Part shown: positions 44,270 to 47,957 of the stretch, in pieces
Layout of the letters: every line of letters starts with the position of its first letter
Position numbering within the stretch: position 1 is the first letter of the stretch
NCBI RefSeq assembly: GCF_004361065.1
Contig: NZ_SELT01000024.1
Location: 1 to 47,957, forward strand
DNA length: 47,957 nucleotides
Reading direction: 5' to 3'
From: Cognatilysobacter terrigena
GTDB taxonomy: Bacteria; Pseudomonadota; Gammaproteobacteria; Xanthomonadales; Xanthomonadaceae
Notes under the pieces: model-generated
Seen by the model: the letters and a program-made list of their open reading frames with translations, nothing else
What the model was told of the DNA's origin: nothing
Database searches by the model: none
Translations under genes and position numbers: made by a program

Positions 44270-45685
44270 ATGGTCTTCAACTCGCTCACCTTCGCGGTGT
44301 TCTTCGTGCTCGTGCTGGCGATGCATTCGCTGCCGCTGGGCTGGACGACCAGGAAGGTCAACCTGCTGCTCGCGAGCTACCTGTTCTACGCCGCGTGGAA
44401 TCCGCCTTTCATCATCCTGCTGTGGATTTCCACCGTAGTGGACTGGTACGCGGCGCAGGGCCTGGTGCATGCGCAGCGACCGCTCGCGCGCAAGGCATGG
44501 ATGCTGCTGTCGGTGGTGGTGAACCTCGGCATGCTGGCGTGGTTCAAGTACGGCGAGTTCGCGCTCGACAACTTCGCGGCATTGATGCACTCGCTCGGCG
44601 TCGCCTACCAGCCGCCGAAGTCCGACATCGTGCTTCCGGTCGGCATCTCGTTCTACACGTTCGCCACGTTGTCCTACACGCTCGACGTCTACCTGCGCCG
44701 CGCGATGCCCGCGCGCAACTTCCTCGACTACGCGCTGTTCGTGACGTTCTTCCCGCACCTCGTCGCCGGCCCGATCATGCGGCCGACCGAGCTGGTGCCG
44801 CAGTTCGAGCAGCCGCGCCGCGCGAGCGGCGACGCGATCCGCTTTGGCCTAGCGCTGATGACGCTTGGTCTTTTCATGAAGGTAGTGCTCGCAGATGGTT
44901 TCCTCGCGCCGCCGGCAGAAGGCGTGTTCGATGCGAAGACAGCGCCGGGCGCGCTCGATGCGTGGATCGGCACGCTCGCCTTCAGCGGACAGATCTTCTG
45001 CGACTTCGCCGGCTACTCCACGACGGCGATCGGCGCAGCGATGTGCCTCGGCTTCGCGATGCCCGACAACTTCCGGTTCCCTTACGCCGCCGTCGGCTTC
45101 TCGGATTTCTGGCGACGTTGGCACATCACCCTGTCGTCGTGGCTTCGCGACTACCTCTACATTCCACTCGGTGGCAATCGCCATGGTCCCGCGCGCACCT
45201 ACATCGCGCTGATGCTGACGATGCTGCTCGGTGGCCTGTGGCACGGCGCGAACTGGACCTTCGTCGCTTGGGGCGGGCTGCATGGTCTGTACCTCGCCGG
45301 CGAACGCATGCTGCGCTCGCGCTTTGGACACTGGCGACCCGGGCCGCTCACGTTCTTCGGACTCGGACTGCTCACCTACGCGCTGATCAACGTGACGTGG
45401 GTGTTCTTCCGGTCGAAGACGTTCGAAGGCGCGTTCACGATGCTGCGTGGCATGGCGGGCGCGACGCCGCATCCGATGCCGCTGCTGTCGGCGTTCGAGC
45501 TGATCGCCGTCGCGCTGATCATGACGTCGATCGTGGCCGTGCACTGGCGCATGCGCGACACCACGCTCGAAGCAGTAGTCGCACGCATCCCGGCACCCGC
45601 CATCGCAATCGGCTGGGCGGCCATGGCGTTCGCGGTGGTCGTTGAACAGGGAGAGGGCAATGCCTTCATCTATTTCCAGTTTTGA
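44270..45685 (+). CDS. MBOAT family O-acyltransferase (AlgI-like)
   Basis: The 471-residue polytopic membrane protein has the MBOAT signatures: SLTFAVFFVLVLAMHSLPLGW, LLASYLFYAAWNPPFIILL, VLPVGISFYTFATLSYTLDVYLRR, FPHLVAGPIMRPTELVPQF, FSDFWRRWHITLSSWLRDYLYIPLGGNRHG and the catalytic His in LGGLWHGANWTFVAWGGLHG. Such proteins transfer acyl, usually acetyl, groups across the membrane to polysaccharides or peptidoglycan together with an SGNH partner. The next gene overlaps its 3' end by 26 bases and supplies that partner. No alginate genes are present, so the acceptor is unknown. Confidence 0.93.
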   Translation: MVFNSLTFAVFFVLVLAMHSLPLGWTTRKVNLLLASYLFYAAWNPPFIILLWISTVVDWYAAQGLVHAQRPLARKAWMLLSVVVNLGMLAWFKYGEFALDNFAALMHSLGVAYQPPKSDIVLPVGISFYTFATLSYTLDVYLRRAMPARNFLDYALFVTFFPHLVAGPIMRPTELVPQFEQPRRASGDAIRFGLALMTLGLFMKVVLADGFLAPPAEGVFDAKTAPGALDAWIGTLAFSGQIFCDFAGYSTTAIGAAMCLGFAMPDNFRFPYAAVGFSDFWRRWHITLSSWLRDYLYIPLGGNRHGPARTYIALMLTMLLGGLWHGANWTFVAWGGLHGLYLAGERMLRSRFGHWRPGPLTFFGLGLLTYALINVTWVFFRSKTFEGAFTMLRGMAGATPHPMPLLSAFELIAVALIMTSIVAVHWRMRDTTLEAVVARIPAPAIAIGWAAMAFAVVVEQGEGNAFIYFQF

Positions 45686-46868
45686 AGCGCTGCCCAATGC
45701 GGTGCGCGCCACTGCTGCAGATCGCCCGGGCGAAGCGCAGCCGGTACCGGTTCGCCCTGTGCCACCCCAGCCGTGGCGTGGCATCGCTGCGACGGCCGTC
45801 TTGCTCGCCGTCATCGCGATCGCCGGCTGGGAGTGGCAGATGCGGCGTGTCGGTTTGCGTGCCGGCGACTACGGGATCGAGCTCTCCGGCTGGGCCGCGG
45901 CACGCCGGCAGATCGACGTGGGCGATGTACCCGTAGCCATCGTCGGCGACTCGCGCATCCTGTTCGACACCGACCTCGACCGTTTCCAGCAACTCACCGG
46001 CGTGCGTCCGTTGCAGCTCGCTCTGCCGGGCTCGAACGCACGACCGGTCCTCGAGGACGTCGCCAACGACCCGAATTTCCACGGCCTGCTCATCGTCGGG
46101 CTCGCCGACATGTCGTACTTCCGCGACGGCCTTGGCAACGGAGAGCGCGCGCTCGATCGCTCCCACAGCGAGATGCCGTCGCAACGTACGGGCTACCTGC
46201 TGTCGCGGCTGCTCGAGCGCTATTTCGCGTTCATCGATCCCGCATATCGGCTCAGCACGTTGGTCTACACCGCGGATCGCGGGCAGCGACGCGGCGGCGC
46301 GTCCTGGTACTACCGCCCGTGGAAGTTGATCCAGGTCGATGAGCGCGGACAGGCGTCGCTATGGTCCAAGATCGAGACCGATCCGCACCTTCGCGCGCAA
46401 GCACGCCAAGCCTGGCTCGATATGCCGGGACGTCCGCCGCGGCCGCCGGTCGATGCGAAGACGATCGAGTCCACGCTGGCGAGGACGCAGGCCGCGGTCG
46501 CGCGCATCCGTGCGCGCGGGGGTGACGTCGTGTTCGTGCGGCCACCATCGTCCGGCCCGTTGCGTATTCGCGAGGAACAGCGCATTCCGCGGCGGCTCGG
46601 CTGGGACGCGTTACTCGCTCGCGCACAGGCTGTCGGCATCCACGTCGACGACCATCCGCAATTGCAGGGGCTCGACATTCCGGAGTGGTCGCACCTGTCG
46701 CTGCGCTGCGCGCCGGTCTATACCGATGCTTATGTGCGCCTGCTCGCAGCCTCGACCTCGCGCGTGGCGATCCGGGCCGACGCGCCGTTGCCGCTGACGC
46801 CGCGCGACTGCGTGACGGGGTGGCCTGGGCGCGCCGTCGCCGTTGCGGGAAGTTTGTCCGGGCAGTGA
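45660..46868 (+). CDS. Membrane-anchored SGNH-like partner of the MBOAT acyltransferase
   Basis: The 402-residue protein starts at the ATG at 45660 (GGGAGAGG upstream), inside the end of the MBOAT gene. A Pro-rich cytoplasmic N-terminus precedes one transmembrane segment (about 42-58, ATAVLLAVIAIAGW). The extracytoplasmic part has a GDS-like block (VPVAIVGDSRILFDTDLDRF), PLQLALPGSNARPVLEDVA and a late EWSHLSLRCAPVYTDAYVRLL in the position of the SGNH His block. The fold resembles AlgJ/AlgX- or DltD-type acyl transfer proteins, but the residue pattern is atypical. It probably passes the acyl group from the MBOAT protein to the final acceptor. Confidence 0.75.
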   Translation: MPSSISSFEALPNAVRATAADRPGEAQPVPVRPVPPQPWRGIAATAVLLAVIAIAGWEWQMRRVGLRAGDYGIELSGWAAARRQIDVGDVPVAIVGDSRILFDTDLDRFQQLTGVRPLQLALPGSNARPVLEDVANDPNFHGLLIVGLADMSYFRDGLGNGERALDRSHSEMPSQRTGYLLSRLLERYFAFIDPAYRLSTLVYTADRGQRRGGASWYYRPWKLIQVDERGQASLWSKIETDPHLRAQARQAWLDMPGRPPRPPVDAKTIESTLARTQAAVARIRARGGDVVFVRPPSSGPLRIREEQRIPRRLGWDALLARAQAVGIHVDDHPQLQGLDIPEWSHLSLRCAPVYTDAYVRLLAASTSRVAIRADAPLPLTPRDCVTGWPGRAVAVAGSLSGQ

Positions 46869-46951
46869 CAGACCCCGTCGACTTCAGCGCGTCAGCAATT
46901 GGATAACCAGTGAACATGGCGTGCGCCGCTGGCCGCGCGGCGACCGCTCAT

Positions 46952-47957
46952 CCGGCCCAGCGCAGCGCGCTGGGCCTTCCGTCGGGCCTGCCGTCATCCG
47001 GCCCCCGCCAGCGGCGCGGTCGTTCGCGAGGGCCACGCGGCGATGCCGCGTAAGCGGCCCTCACTCACCCGGCCCAGCGCAGCGCGCTGGGCGTTCCGTC
47101 AGGCCTGCGCGGCAGTGCCGCGCAAAGCGCGGCCTGCCATCATCCGGCCCGCGCCAGCGGCGCGGTCGTTCGCGAGGGCCACGCGGCGATGCCGCGTAAG
47201 CGGCCCTCACTCACCCGGCCCAGCGCAGCGCGCTGGGCGTTCCGTCAGGCCTGCGCGGCAGTGCCGCGCAAAGCGCGGCCTGCCATCATCCGGCCCGCGC
47301 CAGCGGCGCGGTCGTTCGCGAGGGCCACGCGGCGATGCCGCGTAAGCGGCCCTCACTCACCCGGCCCAGCGCAGCGCGCTGGGCGTTCCGTCAGGCCTGC
47401 GCGGCAGTGCCGCGCAAAGCGCGGCCTGCCATCATCCGGCCCGCGCCAGCGGCGCGGTCGTTCGCGAGGGCCACGCGGCGATGCCGCGTAAGCGGCCCTC
47501 ACTCACCCGGCCCAGCGCAGCGCGCTGGGCGTTCCGTCAGGCCTGCGCGGCAGTGCCGCGCAAAGCGCGGCCTGCCATCATCCGGCCCGCGCCAGCGGCG
47601 CGGTCGTTCGCGAGGGCCACGCGGCGATGCCGCGTAAGCGGCCCTCACTCACCCGGCCCAGCGCAGCGCGCTGGGCGTTCCGTCAGGCCTGCGCGGCAGT
47701 GCCGCGCAAAGCGCGGCCTGCCATCATCCGGCCCGCGCCAGCGGCGCGGTCGTTCGCGAGGGCCACGCGGCGATGCCGCGTAAGCGGCCCTCACTCACCC
47801 GGCCCAGCGCAGCGCGCTGGGCGTTCCGTCAGGCCTGCGCGGCAGTGCCGCGCAAAGCGCGGCCTGCCATCATCCGGCCCGCGCCAGCGGCGCGGTCGTT
47901 CGCGAGGGCCACGCGGCGATGCCGCGTAAGCGGCCCTCACTCACCCGGCCCAGCGCA
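46952..47957. repeat. 146-bp higher-order tandem repeat array with paired hairpins, cut by the right edge
   Basis: Six complete 146-bp units begin at 47069, 47215, 47361, 47507, 47653 and 47799 and appear identical by eye. A shortened 117-bp unit precedes them at 46952, and 13 bases of an eighth unit end the window. Each unit holds two related monomers (75 and 71 bp), each starting CCGGCCC. In the first full unit, monomer A has a 9-bp hairpin with loop AGC (47072-47092) and an inner 7-bp hairpin with loop AGT (47107-47123) inside an outer CAGGCC/GGCCTG stem. Monomer B has a 7-bp hairpin with loop AGC (47149-47165) and an inner 7-bp hairpin with loop GAT (47181-47197) inside an outer GAGGGCC/GGCCCTC stem. 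There are no unique spacers and no protein coding support. Confidence 0.95.

Follow-up and report, generated by a model that had tools for sequence, protein, structure and literature searches.

A tandem array of a two-hairpin DNA element in Cognatilysobacter terrigena and its dispersed, possibly mobile relatives in the Lysobacteraceae

Introduction

Elements of the IS200/IS605 type transpose as single strands 3' of a short fixed motif and have hairpins near their ends. Integron attC sites lie just behind stop codons, conserve structure more than sequence and have the core sites RYYYAAC and GTTRRRY. Insertion of the IS200/IS605 type involves no larger target duplication, according to the part of the source available to us (PMC2817692). 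REP-type repeats, including the SMAG repeats, form local tandem arrays that take in flanking DNA, as described in the accessible portions of two reports (PMC2613905, PMC2817692), and in this they resemble the element studied here. CGTC- and GTAG-tagged palindromic repeats have also been distinguished, the CGTC kind being said, in the sections drawn on here, to have no dedicated transposase (PMC3733652); the words Xanthomonas and Lysobacter were absent from that text.

Here we analysed a stretch of 47,957 bp (the window), which is the entire contig C24 of a 3.22-Mb draft genome in 88 contigs. A preliminary description, made from the sequence of the window, had taken as its object a tandem array at the contig end. 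The array is real, but the main object appears to be a dispersed element, of which the array would be a local tandem amplification.

Results

A tandem array of two diverged monomers

TRF placed a single tandem array at 46985-47957, the last 973 bases of the window, with a period of 146 bp, 6.7 copies and 99% matches, in agreement with the 146-bp dimer first described, and the stem sequences quoted in that description are present in it. The unit consists of two diverged head-to-tail copies of one element, A (75 bp) and B (71 bp). The six complete A monomers are all identical, as are six of the seven B monomers, the exception being the first. With so many identical copies, the array contains no CRISPR-type unique spacers, as had been noted. 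The features of the window are listed below; monomer coordinates are those of model matches, in which neighbouring monomers share two bases.

44270-45685, plus strand: DltB-like ORF beside the 408-aa ORF (143 bits, under that model's cut-off)
45642-46868, plus strand: convergent neighbour, a 408-aa ORF without NCBIfam match
About 46947-46997, minus strand: truncated A copy that borders the array, with hairpin 1 retained and hairpin 2 reduced by loss of its inner part (end placed by eye)
46985-47957, minus strand: tandem array of the A+B dimer, period 146 bp, running off the contig end (TRF; same units on C37:1-189)
46998-47070, minus strand: B monomer 1, with one base different, at 47005, which breaks one hairpin 1 pair
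47069-47145, minus strand: A monomer 1
47144-47216, minus strand: B monomer 2
47149-47165, minus strand: hairpin 1 of B monomer 2 (CCGCGCC, loop GCT, GGCGCGG)
47172-47210, minus strand: hairpin 2 of B monomer 2 (outer stem of 9 pairs, one of them T-G; bulge GCTT; inner stem ACGCGGC/GCCGCGT; triloop ATC)
47211-47216, minus strand: head GGGTGA of B monomer 2, the same motif as the flhA Gly-stop GGG TGA on C37
47215-47291, 47361-47437, 47507-47583, 47653-47729 and 47799-47875, minus strand: A monomers 2-6, identical
47290-47362, 47436-47508, 47582-47654, 47728-47800 and 47874-47946, minus strand: further B monomers, identical

Overlapping 100-aa open frames recur with the array on the plus strand (47043-47929) and are probably a by-product of the GC-rich repeats.

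The contig break interrupts the array. On the adjoining contig C37, positions 1-189 hold the same A/B units, followed by the 3' end of flhA, whose stop codon is the end of the array; therefore, the copy number within the window is not the full count of the array. The two contigs are presumably joined through the array that is common to both. Looked for beside flhA, the convergent gene of C24 had no match in the two congeners examined. The position of the array at a contig end of an 88-contig draft would suit an assembly artefact, but we regard this explanation as highly improbable, given that two separate congeneric assemblies (L094 and L316) have tandem copies, with different stems, after the flhA stop codon.

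Monomer architecture and folding

In the informative orientation, the minus strand (sense for flhA), each monomer reads GGGTGA (or GGATGA), hairpin 2, a CGAACG-like spacer, hairpin 1 and GGGCCGG. Hairpin 2 is made up of a variable outer stem, a bulge (GCTT or longer), an inner stem and a triloop, and hairpin 1 has a GCT loop. The inner stem, earlier given as 7 bp, can form 8 pairs in monomer A, as judged by eye. Folding partly bore out the proposed structure: against dinucleotide shuffles, A and B folded better than the shuffle mean on either strand (z -2.2 to -4.0), and both proposed hairpins were predicted for B as RNA and as DNA and for A as DNA, but in the minimum-energy RNA fold of A, on both strands, hairpin 2 gave way to a different hairpin.

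The RNA fold of A weighs against one alternative, in which the hairpins form an RNA-level 3' element that, behind a stop codon, protects the mRNA 3' end or insulates neighbouring genes, selection on the RNA keeping the stems paired. The sequence after hairpin 1 is a further argument against this alternative, which we consider rather unlikely overall: its consensus is GGGCCGG and no T-run follows the hairpin, so that this feature of an intrinsic terminator is absent. Rfam 15 gave no match above the gathering score in the window, the best weak match to the array by E-value being flpD (E 0.68), and no published description of the element was found in the literature searched, subscription papers lying outside its scope; the earlier statement that no described family has this layout is consistent with both results.

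Dispersed copies in the genus and the family

A covariance model built from six copies gave 28 matches in the genome of C. terrigena (E up to 1), namely 13 in the window, three on C37 and 12 dispersed. With the own genome included in both counts, matches were found in 24 of 40 genomes (E up to 0.001) and in seven of eight genomes of the genus (E up to 0.01); since at most 123-150 candidates were scored per genome, copy numbers from these whole-genome searches are lower bounds. The search of related genomes that had been thought informative at the outset therefore recovered a family of copies, and compensatory changes recur among them.

The exact hairpin 1 pattern occurs in at least 119 stretches of public (GTDB) genomes, a lower bound on its breadth that is biased to one hairpin 1 type. 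Among the matches listed, 71 of 80 titles are Lysobacteraceae or Lysobacterales by name (Luteimonas, Lysobacter, Stenotrophomonas, Pseudoxanthomonas, Vulcaniibacterium, Xanthomonas and other members of the family or order), and six are Proteobacteria or Pseudomonadota without finer assignment. The remaining three, a Streptomyces, a Hyphomonadaceae bin and a Pseudomonas, lack the rest of the element and look like chance matches.

A phage origin was also considered and rejected, there being no exact match to the hairpin 1 pattern in IMG/VR. Separately, two identical diverged copies lie inverted and about 400 bp apart in the own genome (L066 and L067, at C14:25590 and 25985); they have a different head (TGGCGATCC) and similar flanks, and their type recurs in congeners (L323, L344, L351, L355).

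Stem pairing and covariation

In hairpin 1, the two pattern-free positions on each side were complementary in 115 of 130 distinct hits, in five types, compared with about 57 of 130 expected if the sides in the same table were dealt randomly. For hairpin 2, which the search pattern did not touch, we compared the 8 bases after the head with the 8 bases before GAACG in 110 of the 136 hits (12 had no head motif, 10 were duplicates and four lay at edges). These sequence-anchored arms were 84.2% Watson-Crick, against 41.6% when arms were swapped between elements (maximum 46% in 500 swaps), even though the 110 elements have 91 distinct 5' outer arms.

An alignment of 124 distinct members, which took in 100 of the 119 public loci (among the 19 left out, L102, L110, L127 and L171 were dropped as their hits were foreign-looking or incomplete), gave a similar picture: 95.9% of cells pair versus 74.8% after shuffling, although this alignment was fitted to the structure of the model, which favours pairing, a bias of which the anchored test is free. 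Two-sided changes were present in 23 of 24 pairs, a number reached in none of 500 shuffles, and the cells comprised 523 compensatory, 49 one-sided and 119 unpaired cases, with G-C to C-G swaps common among the two-sided changes. The covariation that had been read from A and B is thus borne out across the family, and stem-breaking changes were clearly fewer than compensatory ones in homologous monomers.

What this covariation means is less straightforward. It is strong, as the RNA alternative would lead one to expect, and on the GGGTGA strand, the gene-sense strand, G-T pairs exceed A-C pairs (30 versus 12; p 0.008 against 1:1), although the expectation from arm swaps is itself 54% G-T, which weakens the excess. 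This small signal is as expected if the GGGTGA strand is the folding strand. On the other hand, because one-sided states are rare (49 versus 523) and G-C to C-G swaps are common, covariation is not proof of RNA selection, and the scarcity of one-sided states counts against the RNA alternative. The earlier conclusion that covariation points to selection on the folded form therefore stands for the paired stems and the repeated compensation, but not for the cause, since concerted changes in which one arm is copied from its partner, or selection acting on the hairpin as DNA, would fit as well.

Template switching within a palindrome is known as quasipalindrome correction, and if it kept the arms complementary here, covariation would not report function. 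We treat this purely mutational origin as a possibility, though a doubtful one. The hypervariable outer arms that nevertheless pair are what correction predicts, as is the excess of two-sided over one-sided changes by more than 10 to 1, G-C to C-G swaps included. However, sequence is conserved between genera in the head, in the GAACG spacer and in large parts of the inner stem and the loops. Correction by itself would not produce such conservation, part of which is due to the search pattern and the model.

Copies at stop codons and the flhA locus

We located the heads of 68 copies in relation to genes, these being the copies matched at E up to 0.001 in seven congeneric genomes, with the other copies of the array left out. 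Thirty-one start exactly at the stop codon of a gene (position +3, in an open gene-like frame), five have a stop at +5 to +8, three are in tandem and the remaining 29 lack a sense stop at this point. When only non-tandem, GGGTGA-headed copies were considered, 28 of 37 were at such a stop, compared with 11 of 488 GGGTGA sites elsewhere, the background being taken from public 8-kb loci of other genomes.

Where the array meets flhA, the gene's stop codon is the TGA of the element's head (ATT GGG TGA). The own locus was the only one of 30 flhA loci with a model match. Those of the empty ends that were read finish in GGC TGA, GGT TGA, GGA TGA, AGT TGA and others, and in many of them the next ORF, which we take to be flhF, closely follows flhA. 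In a congener with no model match (L257), flhA ends GGC TGA and thus has the same last residue as in C. terrigena, indicating that the end of the FlhA protein is unchanged and that the element lies 3' of a pre-existing motif. As a separate observation, runs of GGGATTC-type heptamers lie downstream of flhA in L261, L270, L273 and L277; they resemble a quadruplex repeat reported for Xanthomonas in the part of the paper available to us (PMC4692102).

Within the genus, elements recur in several genomes at each of six kinds of gene end, in some cases with quite different outer stems that are nevertheless paired. Both this repeated occupancy and the overlap of the head with stop codons would suit the RNA alternative, but the orthologous ends are mostly empty (no model match at 29 of 30 flhA and 26 of 30 glnA loci). 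Since several of these ends have elements in two or more congeneric species, recent movement at them is not established, and movement in the genus is possibly old instead of current.

Gene-tail units of near-constant length

Many of the copies in other genera are antisense to one of four genes, at its 3' end: glnA (presumably, to judge by its sequence), acnA, the gene of a LuxR-type response regulator and that of an M23 peptidase with LysM; glnA copies are also found in two genomes of the own genus (L079, L315). Copies in this orientation, like those within a MITE described below, count against an RNA-level 3' element. Wherever the layout was read, a short spacer separates the intact gene from the element, and the gene's tail is repeated after the element. 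Flank repeats were scored at 40 of 103 elements, and 28 of these 40 had a spacing of 149-153 bp, across all four genes; the lengths of tail and spacer vary by gene although the unit stays at 149-153 bp.

Two or three tandem units of 148-155 bp, each comprising element, spacer and gene-tail copy, were seen at L100, L104, L108, L111, L117, L120, L124, L133, L165, L178 and L198. Their length is near-equal across four unrelated genes; in the count of these units, elements were tallied only after a tail copy, so that a total of one more tail than elements is partly built in. The correct frame for the native C-terminus of the gene was obtained at 10 of the 26 loci surveyed for tandem units.

The glnA loci provided empty sites for comparison. 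Element and tail copy were present in four of 30 loci, and the other 26 had neither a model match nor a tail copy, although one of these (L227) was readable for 84 bases only and another (L255) has, by eye, a degenerate element-like stretch that the model did not report. At two filled loci (L226, L229), native-looking downstream DNA follows the displaced tail and, by eye, the spacer is not repeated, the layout expected if a ready-made unit had inserted 3' of the GGRTG in the gene itself. For these two loci we rejected an origin of the 150-bp unit by target-site duplication of some 77 bp, since, by eye, the tail is repeated and the adjacent spacer is not. At L253 and in other arrays, the spacer is repeated along with the element.

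The 3' flank of the element is also related to its target. Pairing with the target flank extends over 7 bp or more for 18 of the 32 elements in tail loci, compared with one of 77 in other loci, and the mean pairing run was 5.8, against 3.3 with flanks taken from the other class. Swapping within the class gave a mean of 5.1 (maximum 5.7 in 200 swaps), which stays high because loci of one gene have the motif in common. At the regulator gene, three target variants are matched by three flanks, with exceptions such as L117. A stem that closes the structure could account for the pairing as well as a guide could.

We tentatively propose, as a possibility well short of likely, that these are tiny site-specific mobile elements with two harmless modes of insertion. 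They would enter either at a Gly-stop, sharing GGGTGA with it, or within a conserved gene at its 3' end, in the form of a 149-153 bp unit whose tail copy makes the protein whole again; in the latter mode, the 3' flank (CATCC plus gene-specific bases) would pair with the target flank and vary between species like a guide.

Filled and empty sites and the search for a transposase

Empty sites were seen for both placements, at stop codons and at gene tails. In addition, of 20 copies retrieved from G033, a genome of a different family of the order, 14 lie within a MITE of about 235 bp with CTAGTGTGGTGTTCCG ends. The MITE copies at C2 and C15 have a second element where 13 other copies read that far have none; they are the cleanest filled/empty pair, though one event may underlie both. 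No MITE copy without the first element matched the search pattern, and the filled/empty comparison therefore applies to the second element only. The Gly-stop sites of flhA and the filled and empty MITE copies fit insertion 3' of a fixed short target, with a junction that cannot be placed to the base.

A Y1 (HUH) transposase had no match in the own genome and none in four genomes that carry copies (G001, G002, G003, G006); a Y1 gene was present in 16 of the 26 genomes searched. Mean numbers of matches per genome were 5.5 without and 5.4 with a Y1 gene (24 family genomes, own array counted once), and beside the eight Y1 loci examined no model match was better than E 0.045. A link to RAYT was therefore rejected as a candidate, having gained no support from the family search in 26 genomes or from the model search beside the eight Y1 loci.

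These results bear on whether the element could be an ordinary REP/BIME family mobilised by RAYT, which we hold to be improbable. The likeness is evident in the short GC-rich palindromes, the 5' tag, the location at gene ends and the tandem copies with flanking DNA, as in the SMAG arrays described in the available part of that report (PMC2613905). Yet the head is GGGTGA in 93 of 110 anchored elements, and none of the 17 other heads is GTAG, GTGG or GGAG, in line with the first observation that the GTAG/GGAG tag is lacking, although the survey sought GGGTGA-like heads only and 12 of 136 hits had none. Moreover, there are two unlike hairpins in fixed order, few copies were found per genome, the own genome has no Y1 match, and copies neither correlate with nor adjoin Y1 genes.

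Discussion

With some, though not strong, confidence, we explain the array by a Lysobacteraceae mobile DNA element, non-autonomous and with two hairpins, whose diverged A and B copies were amplified locally, head to tail. The placement of its copies, at stop codons, beside duplicated gene tails and inside a MITE, points to mobile DNA. Against this explanation stand the missing Y1 match in the own genome and in four genomes with copies, match numbers that are alike with and without a Y1 gene, the lack of a match better than E 0.045 beside the eight Y1 loci, the shared occupancy of gene ends among congeneric species, the 29 of 68 copies whose head has no sense stop, and the possible single origin of the G033 pair. 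The element is best explained as REP-like but distinct, and we do not file it as REP because the GTAG-type tag and the transposase link were both looked for and neither was found.

In the mechanism that we envisage, the GGGTGA strand would fold as single-stranded DNA, and an enzyme acting in trans would recognise the hairpins and join the element 3' of a GGRTG site, as is thought to occur for IS200/IS605-type and REP elements. Insertions would survive where they are harmless, at a stop codon, or at a gene end when the unit brings a tail copy. The dimer array would then have been enlarged by unequal exchange or slippage between copies.

If this explanation is right, the element represents a class of very small mobile DNA elements, so far undescribed, that occurs in several genera and follows a simple rule of safe insertion. 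With their 91 distinct outer arms, the 110 elements would also be a natural set for telling apart RNA selection, DNA-hairpin selection and correction between arms. How a unit of fixed length, 150 bp, comes to restore a gene's 3' end is left unexplained in those parts of the REP literature that we examined, and this unit makes the mechanism directly testable.

Among known systems, the REP/BIME repeats associated with RAYT, especially SMAG of Stenotrophomonas maltophilia, are likewise short, GC-rich imperfect palindromes with a conserved 5' tag. They have a GTAG/GTGG tag and one palindrome of 20-40 bp, whereas the element described here has GGGTGA, a length of about 73 bp and two different hairpins in fixed order; they are linked to RAYT, and no such link was found here. 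At most 24 matches were found per family genome (a lower bound, 123 candidates being scored in each), in contrast to the 37-427 perfect copies reported for Stenotrophomonas REPs in the portion of the literature at hand. The CGTC and GTAG repeats are, like the present element, tagged palindromic repeats, but with other tags, a length of 20-40 bp and one hairpin. Integron attC sites share with it the conservation of structure over sequence and the position behind a stop codon; it differs from them in its two separate hairpins and, by eye, in having no attC core sites. Like elements of the IS200/IS605 type, it has hairpins close to its ends, and it would share with them insertion 3' of a short motif and the absence of a larger duplication. 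Unlike that type, the element is without a transposase gene, its units carry the tail of the target gene, and its 3' flank pairs with the target flank over up to 10 bp.
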